A stretch of DNA of 64,000 nucleotides from Pseudolabrys sp. (GTDB taxonomy: Bacteria > Pseudomonadota > Alphaproteobacteria > Rhizobiales > Xanthobacteraceae): contig JAUXXH010000058.1 of assembly GCA_030684935.1 (NCBI GenBank), positions 62,001 to 126,000 of the forward strand, read 5' to 3'. Every line of letters begins with the position of its first letter. The stretch's first letter is position 1. This document shows, piece after piece, positions 19,982 through 60,210 of the stretch. Made by a program: the position numbers and the translations under genes. The notes below the pieces were generated by a model. The model searched no databases, was not told the DNA's origin, and saw only the letters and a list, made by a program, of their open reading frames with translations.

Positions 19982-22144
19982 GTGTCCACCACACGCCCCT
20001 CCCCCACGCCAGCCTTCGGCCAAGCCGACCTTTCCAATTGCGAGCGTGAACAGATCCATCTTGCGGCCTCGATCCAGCCGCACGGCGCGCTGCTGGTGGT
20101 GCGAACCGCCGACGGCATTGTTATCCAGAGCAGCGCCAATGCATCGGAATTTCTCGACCTCGACCGCCCTGCCGTCGGGTGCAACATCCACGAATTCGGC
20201 GGCCTGGCCGAGCATGTCGCCCCGTATCTGACGGAACCGCCGGACGGCCACGCGGTCATGACGCGGTGCAAGGTCGGCCGCACCGCCGGCGAGTTCGACG
20301 TGCTGGTGCATTCGCTCAACGGCGGACTGGTGGTCGAGCTGGAGCGAGCGAGTCCGCCGGTCGATCTGTCGCAACCCGTCGAGACAGCGCTCAAAGGCAT
20401 TGTCTCGTCGACCTCGCTGCGCGGCCTGTGCGAACAGACGGCGTCGATCTTCAAGTCGCTGACCGGCTACGACCGTGTCATGGTCTATCGCTTCGATGAA
20501 GACGGCCACGGCGAGGTGTTCTCGGAGCGGAAAGAAGCACACCTCGAGGCCTTTCTCGGCAACCGCTATCCGGCTTCCGACATTCCGCAGATTGCGCGCC
20601 GGCTTTACGAGCAAACGCGCGTGCGCGTGCTGGTGGACGTCGCCTACAAGCCGGTTCCGCTGGTGCCGCGGCTGTGCCCGCTGTCCGGCCAGGACCTCGA
20701 CATGTCCCTGTGCTTTTTGCGCAGCATGTCGCCCATTCACATTCAGTATCTCAAGAACATGGGTGTCGGCGCGACGCTTGTGGCCTCGCTCGTTGTCGGC
20801 GGCAAATTGTGGGGTCTGGTGGCATGTCACCACTATTCACCCTGGAATATTCCGTTCGAATCGCGCGCCGCCTGCGAACTGCTGGTGGAAGCGATCTCGA
20901 CGCGCATTGCCGCCCTTGAAAGCGTGGCTTTGGCGCAGGCGGAGATTTCGGTCCGGCGCCTCGAGCAGCGCATGATCGAGGCGATCTCGCAGGACGGCGA
21001 CTGGCGCATCGCGCTGTTCGACAACTCGCAAGCGCTGTTGCAGCCGGTCGGCGCGCACGGCGGCGCGCTGCTGTTCGAAGGACAGATCCAGACGGCCGGC
21101 GATGTGCCGGGCACCCAGCAATTGCGCGACATCGCGCGCTGGCTGGACGAGCAGCCGCGTCAGCCGGTCATCGCCACCGCTGCGCTCGGACACGACGAGC
21201 CGCGCTTCGCCCCGCTGGTCGCGGTGGCGAGCGGCCTGTTGGCGGCACCGGTGTCAAGCACGCGGGGCGAATATCTTATCTGGTTCCGGCCCGAGCTTGT
21301 TCGCATGCTGACCTGGGGCGGCGATCCGTCCGAGCCCGTCATCATCGGCAACGATCCATCCGACCTGTCGCCGCGCCGTTCCTTCGCCAAATGGCACCAG
21401 CTGGTGGAAGGCAAAGCGGATCCCTGGACGCCGGCCGACATCACCGTCGCAAAACTGATCGGAGAGACCGTATCGGACGTGGTGCTGCAGTTCCGGTCGG
21501 TGCGCATGCTGATCGCCAAGGACCAGTTCGAGAACGTCACGCAGCAGGTGCAAACCTCCGATATCCCGGTTGTCGTCGCCGATCCGCGCGGACGTATTCT
21601 GCTGCAAAGCCAGCAATTCGAAAGTCTGCTGCCGGCCGGCCACCGCCGCCTCGAAACGATCCAGCACCTTGCCGATCTTTTTGTCGATTCGGCCGAAGCC
21701 AAGCGACGGTTGCGCGAGCTGGTCGATTTTCGCCGGACCTGGCGCGGCGAACTGACGATGCGCATGCCGACCGGCGAGCCCGTCTCGGTGCTGGTGCGCG
21801 GCGATCCGGTGTTCTCGTCGCCCGATCGCGTACTCGGCATTGTTCTGCTGTTCACCGACGTCACCGACCGCAAGACGGTGGAAGCCGCGGGCCGGGAATT
21901 CCAGAACAGCGTGATCGAACGCCACCGCGTGCCCGGCATCAACCTGGGCACCAAGGCAGATCTGATCCATCAGCGGCTGTATTCGTCGGTGGTCGAAAAC
22001 GCCCAATTGGCGGCACTGGAAATCACCGACGGCACCGACAAGGCCCGGATGCTGCGCATGCTCGACAGCGTGCGCTCATCGATGAGCCGAACGGCGGAGA
22101 TCCTCGATCGGCTGATCCGGCGGACCATGCGCGGCAGAGACTAG
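19982..22144 (+). CDS. bphP: Bacteriophytochrome (PAS-GAF-PHY-PAS), red/far-red photoreceptor
   Basis: The 720-residue photoreceptor has the biliverdin-attaching cysteine at residue 20 (DLSNCEREQIH), a PAS domain, a GAF domain with YPASDIPQIARRLY near residue 200, a PHY domain to about residue 500 (SFAKWHQLVEG tongue region), and an extra PAS domain at about 515-625. The C-terminus has a short helical tail and no histidine-kinase H or ATP boxes, as in Bradyrhizobium BrBphP. Start GTG 19982 has GGGGGGAG about seven bases upstream. It follows ppsR2 by 21 bases and faces a heme oxygenase gene that supplies biliverdin. Output is most likely protein-protein interaction with PpsR2. Confidence 0.93.
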   Translation: MSTTRPSPTPAFGQADLSNCEREQIHLAASIQPHGALLVVRTADGIVIQSSANASEFLDLDRPAVGCNIHEFGGLAEHVAPYLTEPPDGHAVMTRCKVGRTAGEFDVLVHSLNGGLVVELERASPPVDLSQPVETALKGIVSSTSLRGLCEQTASIFKSLTGYDRVMVYRFDEDGHGEVFSERKEAHLEAFLGNRYPASDIPQIARRLYEQTRVRVLVDVAYKPVPLVPRLCPLSGQDLDMSLCFLRSMSPIHIQYLKNMGVGATLVASLVVGGKLWGLVACHHYSPWNIPFESRAACELLVEAISTRIAALESVALAQAEISVRRLEQRMIEAISQDGDWRIALFDNSQALLQPVGAHGGALLFEGQIQTAGDVPGTQQLRDIARWLDEQPRQPVIATAALGHDEPRFAPLVAVASGLLAAPVSSTRGEYLIWFRPELVRMLTWGGDPSEPVIIGNDPSDLSPRRSFAKWHQLVEGKADPWTPADITVAKLIGETVSDVVLQFRSVRMLIAKDQFENVTQQVQTSDIPVVVADPRGRILLQSQQFESLLPAGHRRLETIQHLADLFVDSAEAKRRLRELVDFRRTWRGELTMRMPTGEPVSVLVRGDPVFSSPDRVLGIVLLFTDVTDRKTVEAAGREFQNSVIERHRVPGINLGTKADLIHQRLYSSVVENAQLAALEITDGTDKARMLRMLDSVRSSMSRTAEILDRLIRRTMRGRD

Positions 22145-34513: not shown

Positions 34514-35379
34514 GCGACGACGGTTCGCACGGGCTGACCATCATCGCCTTCATCGGCAGCGTGTTCTCGCCCTATTACGCGGCGTCACGCCGCCGCGGCG
34601 ACGGCGACCCCACCGATCACTGCGCCGTCAATGTGGCGCTGTACAATCCGCGATCCAAATACTGGGCGCTGACCGAACGGCGCCGGACGTCGCTCGGCCA
34701 GGCCGCCGCCAGCCTGTCGATCGGCCGCAGCGTCCTGATGTGGGACGGCGACGGGCTGACCATTGAAGTCGATGAACTGGCGGTGCCGCGGTTCACGCGA
34801 CTGCAGGGGCGGATCCGGCTATACCCCGACGCGGTGACGTCGCGCGTTACCGCGCTCGATGCCAACGGTCATCACCACTGGTGGCCGATTGCGCCGTCGG
34901 CCCGGGTCGAGATCGACCTGCAGCAGCCGTCCCTTCGCTGGAGCGGCAACGGCTATTTCGACTGCAATGCGGGCACGCGGGCGCTGGAGCAGGACTTCGT
35001 CGACTGGACCTGGTCGCGCGCGCGCACCGCGGACGGCGCCGCCATTCTGTATGACGCGGCGCGGCGCGATGGATCGAGCCTGTCGCTGGCCTATCGCTTC
35101 GATCAGAGGGGCCGGTGCGAGGAGTTCATGCCACCACCGGCGTCACCGTTGCCGGCGACCGGCTGGCGCATCGCGCGGCGCACGCGGTCGGACGATCCCA
35201 AGCAAACGAGCGTGCGCAAGACCCTGGAGGACACCCCGTTCTACGCCCGCTCGCTGGTCGACCAAAGCCTGCTGGGCGAAACGGTGACGTCGGTGCACGA
35301 AAGCCTGTCGCTCGACCGCTTTCGCCGCCGCATCGTGCAGGCGATGCTGCCGTTCCGGATGCCGCGCGCCTTCAGCTAA
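34165..35379 (+). CDS. crtC: Acyclic carotenoid 1,2-hydratase CrtC; start codon uncertain
   Basis: The recognisable CrtC sequence begins near base 34450 (PRFDAAVPRNGYAWWYIDALSDDG) and runs to 35379 with IIAFIGSVFSPYYAASRRRG and WDGDGLTIEVDELAVP; CrtC adds water at C1 of neurosporene/lycopene. No ATG, GTG or TTG occurs in this frame between 34201 and the conserved start. The coordinates use ATG 34165, which has GGAG eight bases upstream, but this adds about 95 residues read out of frame within crtD and may not be real. Alternatives are a non-canonical start near 34440 or coupling with crtD termination. The stop overlaps the crtB stop on the opposite strand. Confidence 0.8.
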   Translation: MPRNNIPPPGDMRAAFKLHTNRHDDDDAGGLPSPLSGDRRGAVRPGVARLVSIVPAAGRPQQAAWPVSGGRQHTPGPGRADGGDLRPAGGAIFDRGPRFDAAVPRNGYAWWYIDALSDDGSHGLTIIAFIGSVFSPYYAASRRRGDGDPTDHCAVNVALYNPRSKYWALTERRRTSLGQAAASLSIGRSVLMWDGDGLTIEVDELAVPRFTRLQGRIRLYPDAVTSRVTALDANGHHHWWPIAPSARVEIDLQQPSLRWSGNGYFDCNAGTRALEQDFVDWTWSRARTADGAAILYDAARRDGSSLSLAYRFDQRGRCEEFMPPPASPLPATGWRIARRTRSDDPKQTSVRKTLEDTPFYARSLVDQSLLGETVTSVHESLSLDRFRRRIVQAMLPFRMPRAFS

Positions 35380-36419
35380 TAGAGATCGACGGCGCGGCCT
35401 TGCTCGCGCCGTTCCAGCCGCTCGAACAACGCGATCAGCCACAGCGCCCGCGCCTTCAGATTCCACCACGCCGGCGCAAAGTGCGGCGTCTCATGAAGAT
35501 GCGGCGGCCGCAGCGGCTGCACCGCATCGATCAGGAACTGCGCTTCCGGCAATGCCCCGGTGTCCAGGTCGCGCGGCACCGCGAAGCATGCGGACATGGC
35601 GCCGCCGAGCAGGCGCAGTTTCGTCGCGCCGGGCACGACTGCGCGAGACGCGACCGAATCGAAATCCCGCCGCGCCACTTCATGGCCGATCGCGCAGTAG
35701 AGCATCCGCGCCGCATGAATGCCGAAGCGGCAGGTGCCGGGCAGATGGCCGATGCCGAGCGCCGAGCGATCGTAGAGCGCCTGTGCCGCATCCAGCAGCC
35801 GCCGCACCACCGACGCCAGCGCCGCACTGTGCGCGGGGTTGCGTATGAACGCATCGGCGTCGATGCCGGCCTCATCTAGCCAGCGCAGCGGCAGATAGAG
35901 CCGCCCCATGCGTGCGTCCTCGCCGACATCGCGGGCGATGTTGGTGAGCTGCATGGCGACGCCGAGATCGCTGGCCCGCGCCAGCACCCGCGGATCACGC
36001 TGCCGCATCAGCAGCGTCATCATCACGCCGACCGAGCCTGCGACCCGCGCCGCATAGCCGCACAGGTCTTCCAGCGTCTCGTAGCGGCGGCTGGCGGCGT
36101 CCCAGGCGAAGCCTTCGAGCAGGGCCTGCGGCAACGCCCGCGGAATGTCGTACTGCGCGACAACGGACGCAAAGGCGCGGTCGGCGGCGATGTCGTCGGG
36201 CTGGCCACGGTAGAGCCGGTCGAGCCGCCCGGTCAGCAGACGCAGTTCACGCGCACAGTCGTCGCCGCCGTCGATCGCATCGTCGGCCAGCCGGCAGAAG
36301 GCATAGAGCGCGGTGGCGGCGTCGCGCATGCCGCGCGGCAGCACCAGTGAGGCGGCGTGAAACGATCGCGAGCCCCCGCGCAACAAGGTCCGGCAATGGT
36401 CGAGGTCGGCAACGCGCAT
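35376..36419 (-). CDS. crtB: Phytoene synthase CrtB
   Basis: This 347-residue squalene/phytoene synthase joins two GGPP molecules. The first aspartate motif FCRLADDAIDGGDD is near residue 38 and the second, AMQLTNIARDVGEDARMGRLYLP, is near 155. ATG 36419 lies five bases after the crtI stop; a GTG three codons earlier would give a GTGA overlap and is a possible alternative. The stop is nested with the crtC stop (shared bases 35376-35379), so transcripts converge here with no terminator gap. Confidence 0.95.
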   Translation of the reverse strand: MRVADLDHCRTLLRGGSRSFHAASLVLPRGMRDAATALYAFCRLADDAIDGGDDCARELRLLTGRLDRLYRGQPDDIAADRAFASVVAQYDIPRALPQALLEGFAWDAASRRYETLEDLCGYAARVAGSVGVMMTLLMRQRDPRVLARASDLGVAMQLTNIARDVGEDARMGRLYLPLRWLDEAGIDADAFIRNPAHSAALASVVRRLLDAAQALYDRSALGIGHLPGTCRFGIHAARMLYCAIGHEVARRDFDSVASRAVVPGATKLRLLGGAMSACFAVPRDLDTGALPEAQFLIDAVQPLRPPHLHETPHFAPAWWNLKARALWLIALFERLERREQGRAVDLY

Positions 36420-36424
36420 GGGGT

Positions 36425-37966
36425 TCACTCTGCGATCAGTTCGGTGGCATGGGGAACGACGGTATCGAGAACGCGCGCCGACGACAGCACGCCCGGCAGA
36501 CCGGCGCCCGGATGGGTGCCGGCGCCGACCAGATACAGCCGGTCGATGTTCTCGCTCTTGTTGTGCGGGCGGAACCAGGCGCTTTGCGTCAGCACCGGCT
36601 CCAGCCCGAACGCGGCGCCGCGGAACGAGTTCAGACGGTCCTGAAAATCCTGCGGCGTCAGCATCAGCGAGGTGACGATCTCCGACTCCAGGCCGGGCAG
36701 GATGGTGGCGTCGAGATGGCGCGCAATCTTCTGCCGGTACTGCTCCGCCATCACTGACCAGTCGGTGCCGCTCTCCAAATGCGGCACCGGCGACAGCACA
36801 TAGAAGGCGTCGCAGCCGTCCGGCGCCAGCGACCGATCGGTCGCGGTCGGCCGGTGCAGATAGAGGCTGAAGTCGTCGGCCAGGATCTTGCGCCGGAAGA
36901 TGTCGGTGAGCAGCTCGCGATAGCGCGGCCCGAGCATGATGGTGTGGTGCGCCACGTCCGGGTATTGCCGCCGCGTGCCGAAATACCAGACGAACAGACT
37001 CATCGAGTAGCGCGACCGTTCGATTTTCGCGTCCGACCAGCGCCGGCGCGCGGTGGGCCGGATGAGGTGCCGGTAGGTCCAGGCCGAATCCGCGTTCGAC
37101 ACCACGATGTCGGCCGCGATGGTGCCGCCGGAGACAAGACGCACGCCGGTGGCGCGGCCCTGCTCCACCACGATCTCGTCGACTTCCTGCCCGCAGCGCA
37201 CCGCGCCGCCCTGGCCCTCGATCAGGCCGACCAGTCCCGCGACCAGACGGCCGGTGCCGCCCATGGCGAAATGTACGCCCCAGCGCCGCTCCAGATGCGC
37301 GATCAGGCAAAAGATCGACGACGCCGAAAACGGATTGCCGCCGATCAGCAGCGGATGAAAGCTGAACACCTGCCGCAGCCGCTCGTCCTTGATGTGTTTG
37401 GCGACGATCGAATAGACGCTGCGGTGGCCCTGCAGCCGCGCCAGTTGCGGCGCGATGCGCAGCATGTCGCCGACCGATCCGAACGGCACATGGCCGAGCT
37501 CTTCGAACCCGGCTTTGTAGGTTCGCTCGCTGACCTGCATGAAACGGCGGTAACCGGCGACATCCGATGGCGAGAAGCGCGCGACCTCCGCCTCCATCGC
37601 TTCGGCATCGCCGCTGTAGTTGAAGATCGCGCCGTCGTCGAAGCGGATGCGGTAGAACGGCGCGACCGGCCGCAGCTCGACGTCGTCGGCCATGCGGCGT
37701 CCGCACAACTGCCACAGCTCCTCGAACAGAAACGGCGCGGTGACGATGGTCGGCCCGGCGTCGAAGGTGAAGCCATCCTGGCGGTACACGTAAGCGCGGC
37801 CGCCGGGACGATCCAGCTTCTCCAGCACGGTGACGCGGTAGCCGCGCGCGCCGAGCCGCACGGCCGCGGCGAGACCGCCGAAGCCGCTGCCGATCACGAC
37901 GGCATGCGGCGCCCCGGCGCGGATGCCGGGAAAATCCGGAAGACGGCGGCCGGTAACATCAAGCAC
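36425..37966 (-). CDS. crtI: Phytoene desaturase CrtI
   Basis: The 513-residue FAD enzyme desaturates phytoene to neurosporene or lycopene. Motifs: AVVIGSGFGGLAAAVRLGARG near residue 22, DRPGGRAYVYRQDGFTFDAG near 52 and the C-terminal LYLVGAGTHPGAGLPGVLSSA near 475. The start is GTG 37966, with GGGAGG five to six bases upstream, overlapping bchO by eight bases. No crtA is seen, so spirilloxanthin rather than spheroidenone is the expected end product. Confidence 0.96.
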   Translation of the reverse strand: MLDVTGRRLPDFPGIRAGAPHAVVIGSGFGGLAAAVRLGARGYRVTVLEKLDRPGGRAYVYRQDGFTFDAGPTIVTAPFLFEELWQLCGRRMADDVELRPVAPFYRIRFDDGAIFNYSGDAEAMEAEVARFSPSDVAGYRRFMQVSERTYKAGFEELGHVPFGSVGDMLRIAPQLARLQGHRSVYSIVAKHIKDERLRQVFSFHPLLIGGNPFSASSIFCLIAHLERRWGVHFAMGGTGRLVAGLVGLIEGQGGAVRCGQEVDEIVVEQGRATGVRLVSGGTIAADIVVSNADSAWTYRHLIRPTARRRWSDAKIERSRYSMSLFVWYFGTRRQYPDVAHHTIMLGPRYRELLTDIFRRKILADDFSLYLHRPTATDRSLAPDGCDAFYVLSPVPHLESGTDWSVMAEQYRQKIARHLDATILPGLESEIVTSLMLTPQDFQDRLNSFRGAAFGLEPVLTQSAWFRPHNKSENIDRLYLVGAGTHPGAGLPGVLSSARVLDTVVPHATELIAE

Positions 37967-38867
37967 CGGTGCCTCCCGCGATCAGACCGAAACGCGCGGC
38001 GATGCGTTCGATCTCGTGCACAGTGCGCTGCGGCACCTCTTCATGCGCGAGATGGCCGAGACCACGCAATGCGATCACCTCGGTGCCCGGAATGATAGCC
38101 TGAACGCGCTTCGCCTCGGACGGTGGAATGGTGCGGTCGCCGCCGCCGACGATCAGGAACAGTGGTGTCCGCAGTTTCGGCAATTCACGGCGCAGACGCG
38201 GCAGATCCCATTCCGCCATCATTGCCAGCGCCGCGGCGACATGGCCCGGGCGCTGCGCCAGTCGATGGTAGTAGCCGATGCCTTCGGCATCCAGCGTCGA
38301 GCCGGTGTTGTCGATCATGCTCTTGATGGTGGCGCGGTCGAAGGCGCGCCGCGCGAACAGCTTCGGCACGATCGGGATGCGCGTCAGCATCCGCGCCAGC
38401 GGCGAGAACAACTGACCGGCGAGACCCGGCAGCGGCAGCAGCGCGGCATTCAGCCCGATGATGGCGCGTGGCGCGATCCAGCCATCGAGGCTCATGCGTA
38501 CCGCGATCGCCGCGCCGGCCGAGTGGCCGGCCACCAGCGCCGGGCTCTTGTCGAGCGCCTTCAGCAGCGCGCGGATCGCCCGGCCCATGCCGTAGATCGA
38601 CACCAGTTCGCGGCCCGGCATCGCGGTAAAGCCGTGGCCGGGGAGATCGACCCCGATGACATTGAAGTGCTTGGCCAAAAGCGGCGCGACGTCGCGCCAT
38701 GAATGCGTGCTGGCGCCGGTGCCGTGCAGCAGCAGCATGACCGGGCCACTGCCCATGTCCTGCACATGCCAGGCGATGCCGGCGGCACGCACGACGCGGC
38801 TGGTGTGACCGTTCGGCCAGTCACCGCCTTCGCGTTGCCATTGCGGCATGTCGACCATGGCGTTCAT
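37959..38867 (-). CDS. bchO: BchO, alpha/beta hydrolase-type Mg-chelatase accessory protein
   Basis: The 302-residue alpha/beta hydrolase has an oxyanion region VMLLLHGTGASTHSW, a nucleophile elbow VAGHSAGAAIAV (Ser near residue 117) and a C-terminal LRGLGHLAHEEVP histidine. Sequence such as QREGGDWPNGHTSRVVRAAGI is typical of BchO, a PGC protein proposed to act with Mg-chelatase; its reaction is unknown. It usually follows bchID, but here it sits between cbbP and crtI while another hydrolase occupies the place after bchD. Confidence 0.85.
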   Translation of the reverse strand: MNAMVDMPQWQREGGDWPNGHTSRVVRAAGIAWHVQDMGSGPVMLLLHGTGASTHSWRDVAPLLAKHFNVIGVDLPGHGFTAMPGRELVSIYGMGRAIRALLKALDKSPALVAGHSAGAAIAVRMSLDGWIAPRAIIGLNAALLPLPGLAGQLFSPLARMLTRIPIVPKLFARRAFDRATIKSMIDNTGSTLDAEGIGYYHRLAQRPGHVAAALAMMAEWDLPRLRRELPKLRTPLFLIVGGGDRTIPPSEAKRVQAIIPGTEVIALRGLGHLAHEEVPQRTVHEIERIAARFGLIAGGTGA

Positions 38868-38885: not shown

Positions 38886-39767
38886 TCAGTGTTTCAGCAT
38901 CTGCTTGCGCCTTTCCATCAGGCGCCAGATCATCGGCGTGAAAATGAGTTGCATCGCCAGGTCCATCTTGCCGCCCGGACAGACGATGGTGTTCGACCGC
39001 GACATGAACGAGTCGCCCAGCATCGACAGCAGATAGGGAAAGTCGATGCCGCGCGGATCGGCGAAGCGGATCACCAGCATGCTCTCGTCCGGCGCCGGGA
39101 TGTGCCGCGCGATGAACGGATTCGAGGTGTCGACCACCGGCACGCGCTGGAAGTTGATGTGGGTGCGGGAGAATTGCGGGCAGATGTAGTGCACGTAATC
39201 GTGCATGCGCCGCAGGATGGTGTCGGTCACGGCCTCGGTGGTGTAGCCGCGCGACGCCTTGTCGCGGTGCAGCTTCTGGATCCATTCGAGGTTGATGACC
39301 GGCACCACGCCGATGCGCAGGTCGGCGTATTTCGACACGTCGACATTGCCGTGCGCCACCGCGCCATGCAGGCCCTCGTAGAACAGCACATCGGTGTTCG
39401 GCGGGATCTGCTGCCAGGGCGTGAAGGTGCCGGGTCTGGCGTTGTGCGGCGCGGCCTCGGCCTCGTTGTGCAGATATTGCCGCCAGCGGCCGCCGCCATC
39501 CTCGCCATAGGCGCGGAACAGCGCTTCGAGGTCCTCGAACAGGTTCGAGTCGGGGCCGAAATGGCTGAACTGGTAATTGCCCTCCTGCAGTTCCTTGGCC
39601 ATTCGCGCTTTCATCTCTTCGCGATTGTAGCGATGAAAGCTGTCGCCCTCGATGAAGGCGGCGACGACCTTCTCGCGGCGGAAGATTTGCTCGAAGGTGC
39701 GCATCACCGACGTGGTTCCCGCCCCAGAGGAACCTGCCACGGCGATGATCGGGTGCTTGGCGGACAT
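38886..39767 (-). CDS. cbbP: Phosphoribulokinase CbbP
   Basis: The 293-residue proteobacterial (class I) phosphoribulokinase makes ribulose 1,5-bisphosphate for RuBisCO. The P-loop AVAGSSGAGTTSVMR is near residue 9; EGDSFHRYNREEMKARM (near 40) and LFYEGLHGAV (near 127) carry conserved acidic and basic residues. It begins three bases after cbbF and ends 18 bases before bchO, so a Calvin-cycle gene is embedded directly ahead of bchO-crtI-crtB. Confidence 0.95.
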   Translation of the reverse strand: MSAKHPIIAVAGSSGAGTTSVMRTFEQIFRREKVVAAFIEGDSFHRYNREEMKARMAKELQEGNYQFSHFGPDSNLFEDLEALFRAYGEDGGGRWRQYLHNEAEAAPHNARPGTFTPWQQIPPNTDVLFYEGLHGAVAHGNVDVSKYADLRIGVVPVINLEWIQKLHRDKASRGYTTEAVTDTILRRMHDYVHYICPQFSRTHINFQRVPVVDTSNPFIARHIPAPDESMLVIRFADPRGIDFPYLLSMLGDSFMSRSNTIVCPGGKMDLAMQLIFTPMIWRLMERRKQMLKH

Positions 39768-39770
39768 GGC

Positions 39771-40841
39771 TCACGTCGCCGCCCGGAACAGGCCGCGCGC
39801 GCCGAACAGAGGCGCGTCGTATTCGCTCACCGCCGGATCGAGGTGATAGCGCTCGATCAGGTCGACTTCCTCGCTAGCGCCGAAGATGAAGGGGATGCGC
39901 TGGTGCAGCTCCGACGGCACGATATCGCTGATGCGTTCGCGGCCGGTGCTGGCGCGGCCACCGGCCTGCTCCATCAGGAAGGCGACCGGGTTGGCCTCGT
40001 ACAGCAGCCGCAGCCGGCCGGCTTTGGTCGGGTCTTTCGAATCGCGCGGATACAGGAACACGCCGCCGCGCATCAGAATGCGGTGCGCCTCCGCCACCAG
40101 CGAGGCGATCCAGCGCATGTTGAAGTCGCGCCCGCGCGGGCCGGATTTGCCGGCCAGGCATTCGTCGACATAGCGCCGCACCGCCGGCTCCCAGAAGCGG
40201 TGGTTGGAGACGTTAATGGCAAATTCGCCCGCCGCCGCCGGCACTTTGATGTCGGGGTGAGTCAGAATGAACTCGCCGAGGTCCGGATCGAGCGTGAAGG
40301 CATGCGTGCCGCGGCCGATGGTCAGCACGAACATGGTCGAGGGGCCGTAGATCGCATAACCGGCGCAGACCTGCTGTGTGCCGGGCTGCAGGAAGTCGTC
40401 CGGCGCGGCGGCCTCGCCGGGACGCAGTGCCCGCAGGACGGAAAAGATACTGCCGACCGAGACATTGACGTCGAGGTTGGACGAGCCGTCGAGTGGATCG
40501 AACAGCAGCAGATAGCGGCCTTTCGGGTAGCGTTCGGGGATCGCGGCGGGCGCATCCATTTCCTCCGACGCCAGGCCGGCGAGATGGCCGCCGCCTTCAT
40601 TGGCGCTCAGAAAGATGTCGTTGGCGACGACGTCGAGCTTCTGCTGGGTTTCGCCTTGCGCGTTCTGCATCGACGTCGCGCCCAGTACCTGCTGCAGCGC
40701 GCCATGGGCCAGGCGGCGAGCGATGATCTTGCAGGCGATCGCCACGTCGAGCACCAGCGCGTTGAAATCGCCGGTGGCCTGCGGATAGCGGCGCCGCTCC
40801 TCGATCAGGTAGTCGGTCAGCGTCTTGCGGTCCGCCAGCAT
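39771..40841 (-). CDS. cbbF: Fructose-1,6-bisphosphatase class I, CbbF
   Basis: The 356-residue class I FBPase has the metal/phosphate motif LFDPLDGSSNLDVNVSVGSIF near residue 113, ASEEMDAP near 92 and GRLRLLYEANPVAFLMEQAGG near 273. It dephosphorylates fructose (and in some cbb systems sedoheptulose) bisphosphate to regenerate Calvin-cycle intermediates. ATG 40841 is 16 bases after the dxs stop, so it is cotranscribed with dxs and cbbP. Confidence 0.94.
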   Translation of the reverse strand: MLADRKTLTDYLIEERRRYPQATGDFNALVLDVAIACKIIARRLAHGALQQVLGATSMQNAQGETQQKLDVVANDIFLSANEGGGHLAGLASEEMDAPAAIPERYPKGRYLLLFDPLDGSSNLDVNVSVGSIFSVLRALRPGEAAAPDDFLQPGTQQVCAGYAIYGPSTMFVLTIGRGTHAFTLDPDLGEFILTHPDIKVPAAAGEFAINVSNHRFWEPAVRRYVDECLAGKSGPRGRDFNMRWIASLVAEAHRILMRGGVFLYPRDSKDPTKAGRLRLLYEANPVAFLMEQAGGRASTGRERISDIVPSELHQRIPFIFGASEEVDLIERYHLDPAVSEYDAPLFGARGLFRAAT

Positions 40842-40857
40842 GGCAATGCCGATCGCC

Positions 40858-42783
40858 TCATGCCCGCATCATGATCCCGGGGCGGATTTCTCGGCCGAGC
40901 GCCTGGAGCACCTTGGTGACGATGGCCGCGGCATCGAGGTTGGCGGCCGCATACATGGCCTCCGGCTTGTCCTGATCGATGAACAGATCGGGCAGCGTCA
41001 TGGCGTGCACCTTCAGACCCTTGGCGAACATCGCGTGGTCGGCCAGCGTGTGCAGCACCTGCGAGCCGAAGCCGCCGATGGATCCTTCCTCGACGGTGAT
41101 CAGAACCTCGTGCTCGCGCGCCAGCCGCAGCACCAGGTCGGTGTCGAGCGGCTTGGCGAAGCGGGCATCGGCGACGGTCGCCGACAGGCCGTAGCGTTGC
41201 AGTTCGTCGGCGGCCTTGAAGCATTCCGTAAGCCTGGTGCCGAGCGACAGCAGCGCCACCGACGTGCCTTCGCGCAGGATGCGGCCTTTGCCGATTTCCA
41301 GCGGCACGCCGGCGGCCGGCAATGCCACGCCGGTGCCGTCGCCGCGCGGGTAGCGGAACGCACTGGGCCGGTCATCGATCGCCGCCGCGGTCGCGACCAT
41401 GTGCACCAGTTCGGCCTCGTCCGCCGCCGCCATCAGCACCATGCCGGGCAGACAGCCGAGATAGGCGAGGTCAAACGAACCGGCATGGGTCGGGCCATCG
41501 GCGCCGACCAGCCCGGCGCGGTCGATGGCAAAGCGCACCGGCAGGCGCTGGATCGCCACGTCATGCACGATCTGGTCGTAGGCGCGCTGCAGGAAGGTCG
41601 AATAGATCGCGACAAAGGGCTTGAGCCCCTCCGTGGCAAGGCCGGCGGCAAAGGTAACGGCGTGCTGTTCGGCGATGCCGACGTCGAAGAATCGCGTGGG
41701 GAATTGTTTGGCAAAGATATCGAGGCCGGTGCCGTTCGGCATCGCCGCGGTGATGCCGACGATGCGGTCGTCCTTGGCAGCTTCCTTTGTCAGCGCCTCG
41801 CCGAAAACCTTCGTATAGGCCGGCGCCGCCGCCACCGCCTTGGCCTGCTTGCCTGTGGCGATGTCGAACTTCACGACGCCGTGGTACTTGTCGACCGACG
41901 CCTCGGCCGGGCTGTAGCCCTTGCCCTTCTGCGTCACGACGTGAACCAGGATCGGCCCGTTCGGCGCATCCTTCACGTTCTTCAGCACCGGCAACAGGCT
42001 GTTCAGATCGTGGCCGTCGATCGGGCCTATATAATAGAAGCCCAGTTCCTCGAACAGCGAACCGCCGGTCCAGAAGCTGCGCAGAAACGTCTCGAACCGC
42101 GATGCCTTGCTGGCGACGTATTTCGGCATCGCCTTGGTGATGCGCTTCAGCGACTCGCGGATGGTGAGATAGGCGGGTCCGGAAATTGCGCGGGCCAGAT
42201 AGTTCGACATGGCGCCGACCGGCGGCGCGATCGACATGTCGTTGTCGTTGAGAATGACGATCAGCCGGGAGTCCATGGCGCCGGCATTGTTCATGGCCTC
42301 ATAGGCCATTCCCGCCGACATGGCGCCGTCGCCGATCACGGCGATGACGTTGTTCTTCTGCGCCTTGAGATCGCGCGCCACCGCCATGCCGAGACCGGCG
42401 GAAATCGAGGTCGACGAATGCGCCGCGCCGAACGGATCGTAGACGCTCTCGGCGCGCTTGGTGAAACCCGACAGGCCGCCGCCCTGGCGCAGCGTGCGGA
42501 TGCGGCCGCGCCGTTCGGTGAGGATCTTGTGCGGGTAGGCCTGATGGCCGACATCCCAGATCAGCCGGTCGTCCGGGGTATCGAACACATAGTGCAAGGC
42601 GACGGTGAGTTCGACGACGCCAAGCCCGGCACCGAGATGGCCGCCCGTAACCGAGACAGCGCTGATGGTTTCAGAGCGAAGCTCGTCAGCGACCTGGGTC
42701 AGCTGGTTTTCATCGAGCAGGCGCAGGTCGGCGGGACAGGATATGGAATCGAGCAACCGGCCGCCGTCATTGTCGTTCACCAT
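40858..42783 (-). CDS. dxs: 1-deoxy-D-xylulose-5-phosphate synthase Dxs
   Basis: The 641-residue thiamine-diphosphate enzyme catalyses the first step of the MEP isoprenoid pathway. The ThDP/Mg motif [21 protein letters not shown] is near residue 148; the transketolase central domain carries [17 protein letters not shown] near 370 and [17 protein letters not shown] near 420. ATG 42783 lies about 60 bases from a PpsR palindrome pair. Being first in dxs-cbbF-cbbP-bchO-crtI-crtB it links precursor supply with pigment synthesis. A housekeeping dxs may exist elsewhere. Confidence 0.95.
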
Positions 42784-42817
42784 GATGTTTCGCTCCGTGT
42801 ATGGCGAGCATCCATGG

Positions 42818-42861
42818 CGTTATCTTACATTGACGGTTTAATTTGTCATCTTTAATTGACA
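42818..42861 (-). promoter_or_regulatory. dxs promoter with PpsR operator
   Basis: The exact motif TGTCATCTTTAATTGACA lies at 42844-42861. A weaker symmetric copy, CGT-N12-ACG, lies at 42818-42835, exactly 8 bp away. On the minus strand ATGACA (42849-42844), 17 bases and AAGATA (42826-42821) form the promoter, so the two palindromes cover -35 and -10 just as at bchC. It should control dxs-cbbF-cbbP-bchO-crtI-crtB. Confidence 0.8.
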
Positions 42862-42900: not shown

Positions 42901-43689
42901 TTATGAAACCCGTCCGGTCGCGGTCCACGGCTGCATCAGGCGGGAGATGTCCCGGACGGCCAGATACGGCGCCCCCTCCAGCTCCGCAACCTCGCCGCCG
43001 GACAGCGGGGTTTCCGGGTCGCCCAGCGTGGAGATCACCAGGTCGGCGCGGGAGAAATCCTGCGAGCGCGTCCACCGGCCCGGCACCGCGATCGTGAACA
43101 GGCCGGCCGCCTTTGCCGCCGCCACGCCGTTGGCCGAATCCTCGATGGCAACACAGCGGTCTGCCGGCAGGCCGAGCATCGCCAGCAGCATGATGTAGAG
43201 ATCCGGCGCCGGCTTCCGCCGCAGCACATGCATGGCGGAGGCGACGGCGTCGATCGGGCTTCGCGCGTTCTCGCCCAGCGCCGTCTTCATGATCCATTGA
43301 ATGTTCGGAGAGACCGAGGTTGCCGCCACGCCGACCTTGCAGCCGTTCTCACGCGCATCGCCGATCAGGCGCCGCACGCCGGGCAGCGGCTGCAGGCCAG
43401 CGTCGTCAAGCATGTCGGCAAACAGCCGCCGCTTGGCGCGATGGACCAGCGGCGCCAGCGAACGCAGATGTACCCGGCGATCGTCGGTGACGGAAAGCGT
43501 ATCAATGAAATGCAGGATGCGATCCTCACCGCCGGAAATTCCGAGCAGCCGCTCATAGGTGTCGGCGTCCCAGTCCCAGCCCAGCCCGAATTCCATGAAG
43601 GTCTGGTTGAAGGCGCGGCGATGCAGTTCCTCGGTGTCGAAGAAAGTCCCATCCAGATCCAGCAGGATTGCTTCCGGTAACATGGTCAT
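42901..43689 (-). CDS. HAD-superfamily phosphatase, CbbY/Gph-like, second HAD of the cbb operon
   Basis: The 262-residue HAD hydrolase has motif I ILLDLDGTFFDTEELHRR (nucleophile Asp near 11), motif II threonine/serine in VGVAATSVS near residue 129, RRKPAPDLYIMLLAMLG near 165 and motif IV VAIEDSANGVAAAKAAG near 185. It resembles CbbY and phosphoglycolate phosphatase. It overlaps cbbY as ATGA and is a diverged paralogue of it. Substrate could be 2-phosphoglycolate (a cbbZ role) or another RuBisCO by-product; the sequence does not decide. Confidence 0.75.
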   Translation of the reverse strand: MTMLPEAILLDLDGTFFDTEELHRRAFNQTFMEFGLGWDWDADTYERLLGISGGEDRILHFIDTLSVTDDRRVHLRSLAPLVHRAKRRLFADMLDDAGLQPLPGVRRLIGDARENGCKVGVAATSVSPNIQWIMKTALGENARSPIDAVASAMHVLRRKPAPDLYIMLLAMLGLPADRCVAIEDSANGVAAAKAAGLFTIAVPGRWTRSQDFSRADLVISTLGDPETPLSGGEVAELEGAPYLAVRDISRLMQPWTATGRVS

Positions 43690-44420
43690 GCGGCCTCGGT
43701 GCGGTGGGGATGGCTTTCATCATGCACGGCCCGCACGCCGCGCAATCCGAACAGATCGTCAAAGCTGCGCACAATGCAGTCGGCGCGGGCGAAGTCGTGC
43801 GACGCGGTCCACACCGACGGCGAGACGATGGTGCAAAGACCGTCGGTCTTGGCCGACAGCAGCCCGGCAGCGGAATCCTCAAACGCCACCGCCTCGGCGG
43901 CATCGATACCGAGTTGCGCCAGCGCCAGCGTGTAGATGTCGGGAGCGGGCTTCTTGTAGAGCACCTGGTCGCCGCAGGCGACGACATCGAAGATGTCCTC
44001 GGACGAGCGGCCAAGAACAGATTTCAGCAGTTCGTCGACATTCGTCAGCGTGGTGGTCGAGGCGATGGCGAGCATCAGCCCGGCGCCGCGCGCCTCCTCC
44101 AGCAGTGCGGCAATGCCGTCGCGCAGTGTCACGCGGCCGTCCTTCATCAGACGGGCATAATGCCGGGTCTTGCTGACATGCAGCGCCGGCACCTGACGGT
44201 GCAGCCGCGCCCGCTCGACCTCCGGCAGGTCGAGGCGCTCGATGTAGGATTGCAGCCGCTCCTTGCCGCCGGTGACGCCGAGCAGCGCGGTGTAGAGCCG
44301 CTGGTTCCACTGCCAGCCCAGCCCGTGCTCGGCGAAGGCGGCGTTGAAGGCGCAGCGGTGCGCCTCCTCGGTATCGGCCAGCGTGCCGTCGACATCGAAG
44401 ATCAGCGCGCGCAGGATCAT
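43686..44420 (-). CDS. cbbY: CbbY, xylulose-1,5-bisphosphate phosphatase-type HAD protein
   Basis: The 244-residue HAD protein has [21 protein letters not shown] (catalytic Asp near 9), [14 protein letters not shown] near 120, [17 protein letters not shown] near 155 and [12 protein letters not shown] near 178. CbbY removes the misfire product xylulose-1,5-bisphosphate, which inhibits red-type RuBisCO, and is typically encoded beside cbbX. It overlaps both cbbX and the next HAD gene by ATGA, so all three are translationally coupled. Confidence 0.88.
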
Positions 44421-45313
44421 TGGCCCTCTCCTTCGGTGCCGAACACGCGGCTGGCGCGGATGTCGCCGGCCTCGATCAGGCTGAGCTGTTCCAGCGAGAG
44501 GCCGCGCTCACGCGCCTCGAACAGGCGGTTGGCCTGCCGCAGCCGCGCCCGGTCCAGCGCATTGCGGATCGAGCGCGCATTGGCGAATTGCGGACGGCTT
44601 TTGCGCAACGCGATGTAGTCGTGCAGCGCGGCGGCAGCGTCATCACTGAGGCGGTACTGCATCCGCTCCAGCATCAGGCCGGCAATGGCGAACAGCTCAT
44701 CCTCGGCGTAATCGGGGAAGTCGATATGGTGCGCGACCCGCGACGCCATGCCGGGGTTGGAGCCGAAGAAGCGGTCCATGCGGTCCTTGTAACCGGCGAA
44801 GATCACGACCAGGTCGTCGCGCTGGTTCTCCATGACCTGCAGCAGGATCTCGATCGCCTCCTGGCCGTAGTCGCGTTCGTTCTCGGGCCGGTAAAGGTAA
44901 TAGGCCTCGTCGATGAACAGCACGCCGCCCATCGCGCGCTTCAGGACTTCCTTGGTCTTGGGCGCGGTGTGGCCGATGTACTGGCCGACCAGATCGTCCC
45001 GCGTCACCGACACCAGTTGGCCTTTGCGCACATAGCCGAGGCCGTGCAGGATCGACGCCATGCGCATCGCCACCGTGGTCTTGCCGGTGCCGGGATTGCC
45101 GGTGAAACTCATGTGCAGCGGCGGCGGACCGGCGTGCAGGCCGACCGAGCGGCGCAGCTTTTCGATCAGCAGCAGCGCGGCGATCTCTCGCACCCGGCGC
45201 TTCACCGGCGCCAACCCGATCAGGTCGCGCTCCAGCGCCTCGAGCATCTCGCCGATGCGCGACTCGCTGTAGAGCGCGTCGATGTCGAGTGTGCTGGCCG
45301 GGCGTGCGAGCAT
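44417..45313 (-). CDS. cbbX: CbbX, red-type RuBisCO activase
   Basis: The 298-residue AAA+ ATPase has Walker A in [19 protein letters not shown] near residue 70, Walker B in [21 protein letters not shown] near 135 and an arginine-rich sensor region. CbbX remodels inhibited form IC/ID RuBisCO by pulling the large-subunit C-terminus. ATG 45313, five bases after cbbS, is chosen over longer open frames because it gives the family N-terminus and length. Confidence 0.95.
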
Positions 45314-45318
45314 GCGGC

Positions 45319-45744
45319 TCAATCCGCCCCGTAGCGTTCGCCGGACGGGCGATCGGCGGCATAACTGCGCGTGGTGTAGCGCACCTGACGCCCCGCGCCC
45401 TCCTGGCGTTCCAGCGCGAAGCCGGGTTCGTCCTTCGGCCGGTTGACGATGAAGGACAGGCGCAGCGCCTCCCAGCCGTGCGACGAGTCGAAGGCGTTGA
45501 CCTTGATGTAGTGATCCGGAAACGCGTGGCGGCACGCCGTGACCTCGGCCATGACGCCGGCGGCGTCCTTGAGGTCGAACATCGGCATGCCCCACATGTC
45601 CCAGTAGGTGTTCCGCGGGTGCGGATCGTCGGTGTACTCGACCGACACCGCCCAGCCGTTCCTGAGGCAGTATTCGATCTGCGCGCCGATCTGGGTGTCG
45701 CTGAGGTCCGGCAGAAACGAGAAGGTGCCCTGGGTCAGTCGCAT
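45319..45744 (-). CDS. cbbS: RuBisCO small subunit, form IC
   Basis: The 141-residue small subunit begins [19 protein letters not shown] and has [23 protein letters not shown] near residue 36. The C-terminal extension (after about residue 110, ending SGERYGAD) is characteristic of red-like form IC/ID small subunits, where it forms a beta hairpin in the central channel. It starts ten bases after cbbL. Confidence 0.97.
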
Positions 45745-45754
45745 TGCATTGTCC

Positions 45755-47263
<1,509 letters not shown>

Positions 47264-47270
47264 TCATAAG

Positions 47271-47285
47271 AACAATTTAATTGTT
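47271..47285. promoter_or_regulatory. Putative CbbR operator in the cbbL/cbbR intergenic region
   Basis: The near-perfect palindrome AACAATTTAATTGTT sits in the 88-bp gap between divergent cbbL and cbbR. It has the T-N11-A form typical of LysR-family operators and is the only AT-rich dyad in the gap. It lies 16 bases before the cbbR ATG, consistent with autoregulation and with activation of cbbLSXY. Confidence 0.65.
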
Positions 47286-47300
47286 GTTACCATTCCGATA

Positions 47301-48242
47301 ATGCATTTTAATGTCTGGATGCTGGAGCGCGCTTCCCTCAACCAGTTGCGGATTTTTGAATGTGCCGCGCGGCACCAGCATTTCGGCCGCGCCGCCGCCG
47401 AGCTGTACCTGACCCAGCCCGCGGTATCGATCCAGTTGAGCCTGCTGGAGAAGACCGTCGGCATGAAGCTGTTCGAGCAGACCGGCCGGCGCATGCAGAT
47501 CACCCCGGCCGGCGTCGAACTCCTGACCCATACCCGCGCGGTGCTGACGCAGCTCCGCGATGCCGACGACGCGCTGAATCTGCTGAAAGGCATCGGCGGC
47601 GGCAGGCTGCACCTCGCAGCCACCACGACGGCGGAATATTTCGCGCCGCACCTGCTGGCGGGCTTTCGCAAGCTGCACGCCAATATCCGCATCCGGCTCG
47701 AGATCGACAACCGCGAGGCGGTGGTACGGGCGCTGGCCGACAACACCGTCGATCTGGCGGTCATGGGCCGCGCGCCGAGTGAGTTCGACACCGTCGCCGT
47801 GCCGTTCGCCGAGCATCCGCTGTCGATCATCGCAGCCCCCGATCACCCGATGGCGGGCCGCAAGCGGTTCGCTCTTGCACGATTGCAGCAGGATACGTTC
47901 CTGATCCGCGAGCCCGGCTCCGGCACCCGCGCAGCGATGGAGCAGGCGTTCAAGGCGGCCAAGTTCATACCCACGGAGACCATCGAGTTTGGTTCGAACG
48001 AGACCATCAAGCAGGCGGTGGCGGCCGGCATGGGGCTCGGCTTCGTCTCGCTGCACACCGCCGCGCTGGATCTCGCGGTGAAAAGGCTGGTGGTGCTGCG
48101 CATCGACGGCATGCCGGTGATGCGTCACTGGTTCGTGGTGCATCGCGCCGGCAAGCGGCTGTCAGCGGTCGCCGCCGCATTCAAGGATTATCTGGTGGCG
48201 CAAGGCGCGGCGCTGATCGCCGCGTCAGGCCGCCCGCTGTGA
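47301..48242 (+). CDS. cbbR: CbbR, LysR-type regulator of Calvin-cycle genes
   Basis: The 313-residue LysR-type activator has the N-terminal winged HTH (LNQLRIFECAARHQHFGRAAAELYLTQPAVSIQL, residues about 13-46) and an effector domain with REPGSGTRAAMEQAF and GSNETIKQAVAAGMGLGFVS. It is divergent from cbbL, the canonical cbbR position. The start may be ATG 47301 or ATG 47319; neither has a clear Shine-Dalgarno. Its 3' end overlaps the convergent hydrolase gene by 18 bases. Confidence 0.93.
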   Translation: MHFNVWMLERASLNQLRIFECAARHQHFGRAAAELYLTQPAVSIQLSLLEKTVGMKLFEQTGRRMQITPAGVELLTHTRAVLTQLRDADDALNLLKGIGGGRLHLAATTTAEYFAPHLLAGFRKLHANIRIRLEIDNREAVVRALADNTVDLAVMGRAPSEFDTVAVPFAEHPLSIIAAPDHPMAGRKRFALARLQQDTFLIREPGSGTRAAMEQAFKAAKFIPTETIEFGSNETIKQAVAAGMGLGFVSLHTAALDLAVKRLVVLRIDGMPVMRHWFVVHRAGKRLSAVAAAFKDYLVAQGAALIAASGRPL

Positions 48243-49142
48243 CGCCTGCGCCAGAAACGCGTCGTAGCGGCGGGTGAATGCGTCGCCGACTTCGAAGAAG
48301 GGCAAGGCGCCGGAGTCGAACTTGGTCACCGTCCAGTTCGGCCGCTGCTCGAATTGGGCCGCATAACTGTAATCCTGGAAATCGCCGCGGTTGCCGTGCG
48401 ACATCCACACCGGCAGCAGCAGCTTCTCGTAGACGCGGGTAATGTCGCGGCTGAACAGATAGCCCGAGACAAAGTAATACGGCGCAAAACGCGCGCCGGG
48501 CTGGTGCGTCGTCTTGTAATCGTAGTCCAGCAGACCCTCGTCGATGTTCTTCGAACCCCAGGTCTTCTCCAGGAAAAACCGGATCGTGCGCCTGGCGGTC
48601 AGCCCCTTGTAAAGCGGCCGGGTCCACAGCGGCACGGTGAAGAAGCGGTATAGCCACGGCATGGCGCGGGTCGTGCCCGGCGGTTCGTTATAGGGCGCCT
48701 TCTTGTCGAAGCCGGTCGGGCTGATCAAGGCGGCGCTGCGGTAATGCTCCGGCCGTTCGCTGATGGCGCGGGCGAGAAACTCGCACGACAGCGACAAGGC
48801 CGCCGCGTCGATCGGCACGTTGTCGTGAGCCTTGCGTATCGCATCGACCATGGCGTGAATGGCGTCGGTCATCAGCCGCGGCGTGTAGACGCGGTCCGAA
48901 CGCTCGGAGAAACCGAAGCCGGGCAGATCGAGCGCATAGACCGGGCGCTTCGCCTGATAGGCCTCGTACAGCGGCTTCATCTCATAGGCCGAGCCGGCCG
49001 CATTGATGCTGTGCGCCAGCAGCACCGGCGGGCCGCCTTGGCCGGCCGAGCGGTAATAGCTCAGCGCGCCGGCGGGGCTCGTCGCGATTGTGTGGCGCTC
49101 GCCCGGCAAGGCGGGCGGCAAGGGTCGGTCGGCCGCGGTCAT
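48225..49142 (-). CDS. Alpha/beta hydrolase of unknown substrate following bchD
   Basis: The 305-residue protein has an alpha/beta-hydrolase fold: PPVLLAHSINAAGSAYEM (oxyanion strand near residue 42), YALDLPGFGFSERSDR near 72, and a nucleophile region IDAAALSLSCEFLAR near 113. Here the usual G-x-S-x-G reads A-L-S-L-S-C, so the glycines are absent. It lies 77 bases after bchD in the same direction, the place normally held by bchO, yet it differs from the BchO at 37959. ATG 49142 is preferred; an in-frame TTG lies 11 codons upstream. The product may assist chelatase or have an unrelated role. Confidence 0.7.
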   Translation of the reverse strand: MTAADRPLPPALPGERHTIATSPAGALSYYRSAGQGGPPVLLAHSINAAGSAYEMKPLYEAYQAKRPVYALDLPGFGFSERSDRVYTPRLMTDAIHAMVDAIRKAHDNVPIDAAALSLSCEFLARAISERPEHYRSAALISPTGFDKKAPYNEPPGTTRAMPWLYRFFTVPLWTRPLYKGLTARRTIRFFLEKTWGSKNIDEGLLDYDYKTTHQPGARFAPYYFVSGYLFSRDITRVYEKLLLPVWMSHGNRGDFQDYSYAAQFEQRPNWTVTKFDSGALPFFEVGDAFTRRYDAFLAQASQRAA

Positions 49143-49219
49143 GTCGAACGGTATCCCGGAATGGCGCCGGTGCAAGCCCGGCTCTGATGGGACAAGCCCC
49201 GGCGCGGGCCCGGAGTTCC

Positions 49220-57039: not shown

Positions 57040-58068
57040 TTACCGGGTTGGCGCCAGCCGGTAGTGGCTGACGCCCCACTCTGAACCGTTGGCGTGGCCG
57101 AACAGACCTGACGTCGCCAGAAAGAACAGCCGCCAGCGGCGGCGCCACAGCGCGGCGTCGCGGCCATAAGTCTGCGCCAGCACCTGGTCGACGGCATCGA
57201 TGTTGCGGTCGAAATTCTCCAGCCAGTGGTCGGCGGTGCGCGCGTAATGCGCGCCGCTCCAGCGCCAGTCCTGGTCCAGCGTGAACAGATCCGGGAACTC
57301 GCGGATCAGATCGTGGCTCGGCATGATGCCGCCGGTGAAGAAATGCTGCGCGATCCAGTCTTCCTTGTCGTCGAGTTCGAAGCGATACGGCGCGCTGCGA
57401 TGGCTGAAGACGTGGAAGAACAGCAGACCGTCCGGCTTCAGCCAGGAGCGGATGCGCTCCAGCAGACCGCGCCAGTTGGCCATGTGCTCGAACATCTCCA
57501 CCGACACCACGCGGTCGAAGCGCCGCTCCGGCGTGAAGGCGTTCATGTCGGCAGTGACGACCTCGAGGTTGGTCAAGCCGCGCGCTTGCGCCTGCTGCAT
57601 GATGAAGGCGCGCTGCGATTGCGAATTCGACACCGCGGTGATGCGCGCCGCCGGATAGTGGCTGGCCATCCACAGCGACAACGAGCCCCAGCCGCAGCCG
57701 AGCTCGAGAATGTCCTGGCCGTCCGCCAGTTGCGCATTCGCCGCGGTCCGCTTCAGCGCGGCTTCCTCGGCGTCGGCCAGCGTCGATGTGGCGCTGTCGT
57801 AGTAGCAGCACGAATATTTGCGCTGCGGCCCGAGCACCAGATCGAAGAAGGCGGCCGGCACTTCGTAATGCTGCGCGTTGGCGGCATCGACGCTCTCGGC
57901 GATCGGGTACTCCGGCATCCCGGCGGCGAAGGTGCGGTTGATATCGGCGGGCGCGGAGGCCAGCTTGCGCCGTGTGCGGCCGACCAGAAACGACACCGCC
58001 GCGCGCGATACGGCATCCGGCCACGGCAGGCGCTCGAAAGCCGGAATGACGCGCTGGATCGCGCTCAT
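57040..58068 (-). CDS. Cyclopropane-fatty-acyl-phospholipid synthase-like methyltransferase (first of two)
   Basis: The 342-residue SAM-dependent enzyme has HYEVPAAFFDLVLGPQRKYSC near residue 67, the SAM motif ILELGCGWGSLSLWMASHYP near 118 and VSVEMFEHMANWRGLL near 187. The family transfers a methyl(ene) group to double bonds of phospholipid acyl chains. It is the last gene of rpoE-chrR-DUF1295-this gene and overlaps DUF1295 as ATGA, so it should be sigma-E controlled. It differs from the longer homologue at 62455. Confidence 0.85.
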   Translation of the reverse strand: MSAIQRVIPAFERLPWPDAVSRAAVSFLVGRTRRKLASAPADINRTFAAGMPEYPIAESVDAANAQHYEVPAAFFDLVLGPQRKYSCCYYDSATSTLADAEEAALKRTAANAQLADGQDILELGCGWGSLSLWMASHYPAARITAVSNSQSQRAFIMQQAQARGLTNLEVVTADMNAFTPERRFDRVVSVEMFEHMANWRGLLERIRSWLKPDGLLFFHVFSHRSAPYRFELDDKEDWIAQHFFTGGIMPSHDLIREFPDLFTLDQDWRWSGAHYARTADHWLENFDRNIDAVDQVLAQTYGRDAALWRRRWRLFFLATSGLFGHANGSEWGVSHYRLAPTR

Positions 58069-58880: not shown

Positions 58881-58905
58881 GATGCAATCCGGTTGCGCGC
58901 GATCA

Positions 58906-60110: not shown

Positions 60111-60210
60111 CGATATGGGCTTGTCGGTCAATGTACCTGCTTCCACGAGCCGCCATAGCGCTATAGCGGTCCCGCTGAGATCGTCCCTGTGAGCGACTGC
60201 CTGCATGTGA

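Follow-up and report, generated by a model that had tools for sequence, protein, structure and literature searches.

The window analyzed here, the whole stretch of 64,000 nucleotides from contig JAUXXH010000058.1 (positions 62,001 to 126,000) of Pseudolabrys sp., an uncultured purple bacterium, carries a photosynthesis gene cluster in which a block of Calvin-cycle genes is placed between bchD-hyd and bchO. On the minus strand, the order is cbbL-cbbS-cbbX and two haloacid dehalogenase (HAD) phosphatase genes, followed by a gap of 117 bp and then by the run dxs-cbbF-cbbP-bchO-crtI-crtB, with an operator of the PpsR type before dxs.

The Calvin-cycle block and the run from dxs to crtB

The run consists of dxs (1-deoxyxylulose-5-phosphate synthase, DXS; 40858..42783; TIGR00204, 816.7 bits), cbbF (class 1 fructose-1,6-bisphosphatase, FBPase; 39771..40841; NF006779, 505.2 bits), cbbP (phosphoribulokinase, PRK; 38886..39767; NF011997, 503 bits), bchO (37959..38867; TIGR03056, 298.6 bits for a cut-off of 172.55), crtI (36425..37966; TIGR02734, 648.7 bits), and crtB (35376..36419; NF045921, 394.2 bits, below the cut-off of 500, the query being one codon short), all on the minus strand and without internal stops. 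The recomputed gaps are 16, 3, 18, -8, and 5 bases, identical to those of the original prediction, which had described a run in one direction without terminators. Also, no terminator-like site lies in the minus-strand gaps, the matches on this strand falling within crtI, bchO, and cbbF, in a scan that is weak in general (8 sites on both strands vs 5.6 in shuffles). Being collinear, closely spaced, and free of such sites, these genes have the layout of a superoperon. The curated NCBIfam cut-offs are exceeded for dxs, the class 1 FBPase, PRK, BchO, the CrtI family, and CbbX; for CrtB, the phytoene synthase models are the best matches but under their cut-offs. Active-site motifs are present in cbbF, cbbP, dxs, and cbbL.

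The genes of ribulose-1,5-bisphosphate carboxylase/oxygenase (RuBisCO) had been placed just upstream of dxs, which NCBIfam and Pfam matches bear out. These are the two overlapping HAD phosphatase genes (42901..44420; Pfam HAD), whose position suggests the cbbY/cbbZ type, cbbX for the red-type RuBisCO activase (44417..45313; TIGR02880, 513.3 bits; start at 45313 predicted from the sequence), cbbS for the small chain (45319..45744; PF00101, 134.7 bits), and cbbL for the large chain (45755..47212; NF003252, 786.4 bits, over the subfamily cut-off; start likewise predicted), all on the minus strand. As in a CbbR operon, a cbbR-like LysR regulator gene (47301..48242, plus strand; best match NF045990 CbbR, 272.8 bits, below the cut-off of 450) diverges from cbbL, and the region between them (47213..47300) would, judging from the divergent genes, hold a CbbR operator and promoter. 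This arrangement is not found at cbbF, and cbbF and cbbP are not contiguous with the RuBisCO genes, the PpsR-type operator and dxs intervening. The gene called hyd (48225..49175, minus strand) is the usual family gene between bchD and bchO, relatives having 52-60% identical genes there; by eye, its product is alpha/beta-hydrolase-like, with no Pfam match at 1e-10 and no NCBIfam match at 1e-20.

The host genome (G000), a 3.67-Mb assembly of 59 contigs and 89.6% complete, contains single matches for cbbP and cbbL, and cbbF is its sole class 1 match. A GlpX-type FBPase is encoded elsewhere and could serve gluconeogenesis. The window dxs is the second of two copies in the genome, the other lying on contig C15 with 75% identity. 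An Rfam search of the window gave no match.

PpsR-type operators before dxs and cbbF

Operators were scored with a matrix built from 15 of the 19 Rhodobacter sphaeroides sites obtained by chromatin immunoprecipitation sequencing and given in Table 2 of PMC4344238, the four not upstream of an annotated gene being omitted; the training sites score 12.3-25.8 bits. The gap before dxs contains TGTCAATTAAAGATGACA (42844..42861, minus strand) with 23.5 bits, the second best score in the 64 kb. This score is not reached in 2000 dinucleotide shuffles of that gap, although a bare TGTN12ACA is present in 2.6% of them. A second site, CGTCAATGTAAGATAACG (42818..42835, minus strand), of 7.6 bits, lies 8 bp from the first; in 3000 shuffles, a comparable partner at a gap of 7 or 8 has P = 0.007. 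The exact palindrome and the weaker one 8 bp away that had been described before dxs are both present, at 42861-42844 and 42835-42818 in the direction of the genes. The main site overlaps a candidate sigma-70-like promoter, ATGACA-16-TAAGAT (42822..42849, minus strand; 9/12 in a consensus scan), although such pairs are weak evidence, as 2 are found in 13.3 kb and shuffles give 1.8.

As in a PpsR regulon, a TGTN12ACA operator stands in the predicted dxs promoter, and the window as a whole has 12 occurrences of TGTN12ACA vs 5.06 expected, a count not reached in 100 shuffles. Eight sites score at least 18 bits, and none does in 60 window shuffles or in bases 1-60000 of the contig outside the window. 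By gene position, these are at bchC, dxs, crtE/crtD (two), ispH-bchI, the cycA-like gene/ppsR2 (two), and the start of a presumed bchF, an open reading frame (ORF) taken as such without library comparison. Two of the strong sites lie within the longest reading of crtD, from a TTG start, and one within the presumed bchF, and these would lie in promoters only if translation in fact begins further downstream. The sites at bchC, ispH-bchI, and crtE/crtD likewise have a partner of 6.7-13.8 bits at 7-8 bp.

Moreover, PpsR itself is encoded in the genome, two TIGR02040 proteins over the cut-off of 275.4 bits being found in the window, both with PAS domains and a Fis-type helix-turn-helix. By analogy, they are numbered ppsR1 (11353..12777, plus strand; 437.7 bits) and ppsR2 (18599..19960, plus strand; 492.2 bits). 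Each has one cysteine, at 427 in PpsR1 and at 223 in PpsR2. A bphP-like bacteriophytochrome gene (19982..22144, plus strand; NF041576, 328.7 bits, below the cut-off of 1040) adjoins ppsR2. In PMC10569730, PpsR1 is reported as an activator and PpsR2 as a repressor in Bradyrhizobium, and both as repressors in Rhodopseudomonas palustris; at dxs, PpsR1 and PpsR2 may each repress or activate. Between ppsR1 and ppsR2 (window 16491-17699) lies an aminotransferase gene with BhcA (aspartate-glyoxylate aminotransferase) as its nearest match, at a score under the cut-off.

The same block, in the same place, is found in a different genus of the family, in the locus L119 of genome G431 (89% complete), which gives the PpsR reading its strongest support. 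Here, the order is bchD-hyd-cbbR-cbbLSX-HAD-HAD-cbbF-cbbP-bchO-crtI-crtB, without dxs, and a PpsR-type pair directly precedes cbbF: TGTCAATTTTTAATTACA, of 21.0 bits (0/2000 shuffles), and, 7 bp further on, TGTAAGATAAAATAGACT, of 15.2 bits (P = 0.0003). The comparison of related clusters that the original prediction had called for thus gives a second cbbFP block behind such a pair, and, as this operator is there without dxs, it goes with cbbFP whether dxs is present or not. The spacing of 7-8 bp in the dxs and L119 cbbF pairs matches that of the bchC pair in both genomes. The gaps before dxs and before the L119 cbbF have GTGTCAATT and ATGTAAGATA/TGTAAGATAA in common, and their overlapping shared 10-mers make ATGTAAGATAA. 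In the 71-kb L119 contig, the seven sites of at least 12 bits are at four promoters only: bchI, cbbF, crtE/crtD, and bchC. No ppsR was seen on this contig, which ends in bchX and is the part of G431 searched for it; bchO is absent from the other seven genomes of the genus. A 45% identical relative of the BhcA-like aminotransferase precedes bchI on the L119 contig.

For comparison, 26 other cbbF upstream regions, hand-picked from the family plus the named locus L056 and including 12 with a divergent cbbR next door, score at best 9.2 bits, under the weakest training site. Upstream of cbbL, the scores are 0.6 in the window (the best in 300 bases around) and -2.4 in L119.

The second difference from relatives concerns crtI. 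The usual family order is bchI-bchD-hyd-bchO-crtI-crtB (bchO being found in 50 of 391 sampled family genomes; 37 of 72 listed places in other genomes were taken). Of the 23 other family loci compared, 20 have a PpsR-type site of at least 12 bits between bchO and crtI, identical operators occurring in some of them, so that not all are independent. The 23 are what is left, after removal of L119 and of two loci from other families, of 26 loci with bchO and crtI in the same direction out of 39 given, the 13 dropped ones having crtI outside the stretch and being mostly bchO copies outside a cluster. Neither the window (none of at least 10 bits) nor L119 has such a site. In the window, crtI overlaps bchO by 8 bases, which leaves no gap to hold a PpsR site of its own; both loci then seem to rely on upstream transcription through cbbFP. 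A bodily move of the crtI operator to dxs or cbbF is not supported: of the 14 loci of relatives with a close pair before crtI, 11 have a gap of 17 bp, against 7-8 bp here.

Two probable transcription entries and their alternatives

On the grounds of gene order and operator sequence, PpsR control of an operon for FBPase, PRK, and pigment enzymes is well supported, and the arrangement would probably comprise two transcription entries, a PpsR-headed dxs-cbbFP-bchO-crtIB unit and a CbbR-driven cbbL unit. The divergent cbbR/cbbL promoter would start cbbLSX and the two HAD genes, and a second promoter with the PpsR operator would start dxs-cbbF-cbbP-bchO-crtI-crtB (in L119, without dxs), so that the pigment genes and the genes making ribulose-1,5-bisphosphate (RuBP) may share one message. 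Upon release of PpsR, by low oxygen or, by analogy, by far-red light through BphP, DXS, FBPase, and PRK would rise together with the pigment enzymes, RuBisCO being set mainly by CbbR. One signal may then turn on light harvesting plus part of carbon fixation.

The original prediction that cbbFP are transcribed with carotenoid genes under a light/oxygen repressor holds as to the close run behind a PpsR-type operator, also seen in L119, but PpsR as the sole driver is not established. Its strict split, PpsR for regeneration and CbbR for fixation, is unsupported: no terminator-like site lies in the 117-bp gap between cbbZ and dxs, and CbbR-driven read-through may therefore also reach cbbFP. Taken to its end, this would make CbbR the main driver of cbbFP, by a long message from cbbL through dxs-cbbFP-bchO-crtIB, with PpsR only topping up dxs and the pigment genes. 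The genes from cbbL to crtB are all collinear, the gap is free of minus-strand terminator-like sites, and the ordinary cbb operons examined have cbbF next to cbbP, the two following either cbbR or cbbLSX. However, in L119, the PpsR-type pair stands directly before cbbF, and a promoter there would read cbbFP before any pigment gene, so we consider this alternative unlikely.

It is far less probable that the dxs palindrome is a site for CbbR, a LysR-type protein, which would place cbbFP under that regulator. The palindrome contains the 8-mer CAATTAAA, common to the cbbL promoters of the window and L119, which is the one hint of CbbR; the loose CbbR consensus, TNA-N7/8-TNA, is easily met by AT-rich DNA. 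Nonetheless, the palindrome has the full PpsR consensus and a bchC-like pair spacing, the L119 cbbF gap has no 7-mer in common with its cbbL promoter, and the control cbbF regions, those beside a divergent cbbR included, stay at or below 9.2 bits with the PpsR matrix. Finally, PpsR sites that are bound yet unresponsive are reported in R. sphaeroides (PMC4344238), but an inert chance match before dxs is scarcely credible, given scores unreached in shuffles at the corresponding place in two genomes and the restriction of such sites to four promoters of the L119 contig.

Several observations weigh against a PpsR-headed unit. The matrix derives from R. sphaeroides, the second dxs site is weak, and the strong window sites at 18524, 18467, and 10101 are without a partner at 5-13 bp. 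The arrangement is found in two genomes only, both incomplete metagenome-assembled genomes (89.6% and 89%), and no GlpX is seen in G431, so that cbbF there could be needed at all times. Four Rhodoplanes loci (L128, L129, L133, and L145) have a related cbbF between hyd and bchO with no PpsR site before it (best 2.0 bits), which makes cluster position and PpsR control separable, and a fifth (L127) has no cbbF before bchO. Also, three of the 23 family loci have neither the crtI site nor such a Calvin block; these are all three loci of genus g163, which we take to be Blastochloris from size and gene order, the label being unconfirmed. In these loci (L132, L134, and L146), cbbR-cbbLSX-cbbF-cbbP abuts the photosynthesis cluster, cbbP being seen in two of the three stretches.

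The PpsR-headed unit could have a further consequence. RuBP, made by PRK, activates CbbR in R. sphaeroides (PMC4806589), and PRK under PpsR could therefore pass the light/oxygen signal to RuBisCO. In such a relay, which we propose tentatively, derepression would raise PRK, RuBP, CbbR activity, and the RuBisCO operon in turn, with PpsR heading the whole Calvin cycle in this lineage; if true, a single feed-forward cascade would place both pigment and carbon fixation under light and oxygen.

Related clusters and history of the block

Calvin genes beside or inside photosynthesis clusters are already known, and the new element would be a PpsR-type operator at their head. In Acaudatibacter (Caulobacterales; PMC12700997), Calvin genes with cbbX and cbbY are inside an alphaproteobacterial photosynthesis gene cluster, as in the window; by its published description, the carbon-fixation genes are outside the region syntenic with other clusters, and the main text has no occurrence of PpsR, cbbF, or bchO. 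The photosynthetic Bradyrhizobium PGC1 and Rhodopseudomonas clusters (PMC10569730) are family relatives sharing ppsR1, ppsR2, bphP, and adjoining Calvin genes with the window, but there the Calvin genes flank the cluster. In the Bradyrhizobium (4) and Rhodopseudomonas-type (3) loci, cbbF is without a PpsR site, and crtI keeps its own in the loci scored. The R. sphaeroides PpsR regulon has the same operator form, and its targets include the bchC, crtE, crtI, and bchI operons, whereas no Calvin-cycle gene is listed in Table 2 of PMC4344238. In another family of the order (L163/L085), dxs heads bchO-crtIB behind a PpsR-type pair of 16.3 + 14.0 bits, but without cbbFP.

PpsR is said to act solely as a regulator of photosynthesis (PMC10734443), and control of the Rhodobacter Calvin genes is ascribed to RegA/PrrA and CbbR (PMC4806589, PMC4344238). 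In R. capsulatus, these genes rise most on a shift to photosynthetic growth, which RegA is said to oppose (PMC5643017). Among the matches listed in the literature covered, which includes few subscription journals, none describes a PpsR operator at Calvin genes. Direct control of FBPase and PRK by such an operator would be a second and simpler type of wiring, which would have evolved by placing the genes behind a photosynthesis operator, and the maker of the metabolite that activates CbbR would come under the pigment regulator.

The four Rhodoplanes clusters have an FBPase of the same lineage, 67-69% identical, and, unlike the window, their stretches are without cbbP, RuBisCO, and dxs; crtI has its own operator in the three loci whose stretch includes it. 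L129 was identified by its match to the named contig L055 (R. tepidamans), and the other three were assigned by genus. About 200 bases before the cluster cbbF, all four carry a strongly conserved leader, GCGAGCAAGCGA ... CCCGCTTGCAGCCTGCTCGTCG ... GATTGGGAGAC, which by eye looks like a structured 5' RNA; an Rfam run on one locus (L129) gave no credible match.

Among 80 named loci, chosen by bchO likeness, several of them short and possibly without the window's own or near records, L055 is the only one with cbbF in the slot before bchO, none has cbbP there, and in L056 a complete cbb operon adjoins the photosynthesis cluster. None of 30 short bchO loci of the order contains cbb genes, and two have dxs before bchO. 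In L162 and L163, from two other families of the order, dxs directly precedes bchO-crtI-crtB, with a PpsR-type pair before it in L163 and no site of 12 bits in L162.

In the FBPase tree, a 100/100 branch separates the cluster proteins (window, L119, and four Rhodoplanes) together with L056 from 21 others, L056 and L119 being flagged as long branches. Moreover, the best model of the cluster and L056 FBPases is NF006779 and not NF006780 (the window, three cluster or L056, and two canonical proteins compared). Together with the branch, this rules out the window cbbF as a canonical cbb-operon FBPase. As the L056 operon lies beside a cluster, this FBPase lineage also occurs outside the bchO slot. 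In the other trees, the window cbbP has that of L119 as its sister (96/88), and the window dxs branches without a supported sister. A recent duplication of the housekeeping dxs is not supported as its origin, the C15 copy grouping with four same-genus genomes (100/99) and the window dxs apart. Apart from the cluster, one Rhodoplanes genome (G371, L171) carries an ordinary cbb operon. In one account, an early family cluster may have acquired this FBPase, either by itself or together with the block, Rhodoplanes keeping cbbF only; the trees leave the order of events unfixed.

Within the genus of the window, cbbP (E 1e-40 or better) is found in three of 43 genomes, the other two (L160 and L161) having it behind cbbSX and cbbF in the ordinary order. 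bchO is absent from the 20 same-genus genomes listed, and the search presumably covered all 42. The window genome would thus be an uncommon phototroph for its genus, unless the cluster contig is misbinned. On this point, the single flank gene searched is accessory, its best matches being in other families, ten flank ORFs include no clear housekeeping marker, and GC content is alike in the flank and other contig pieces (0.645-0.672). Also adjoining the cluster, window 57040-60251 holds genes for a sigma-70-family factor, a ChrR-type cupin protein, a DUF1295 protein, and a cyclopropane-synthase-like protein, similar to the Rhodobacter RpoE-ChrR singlet-oxygen response genes.

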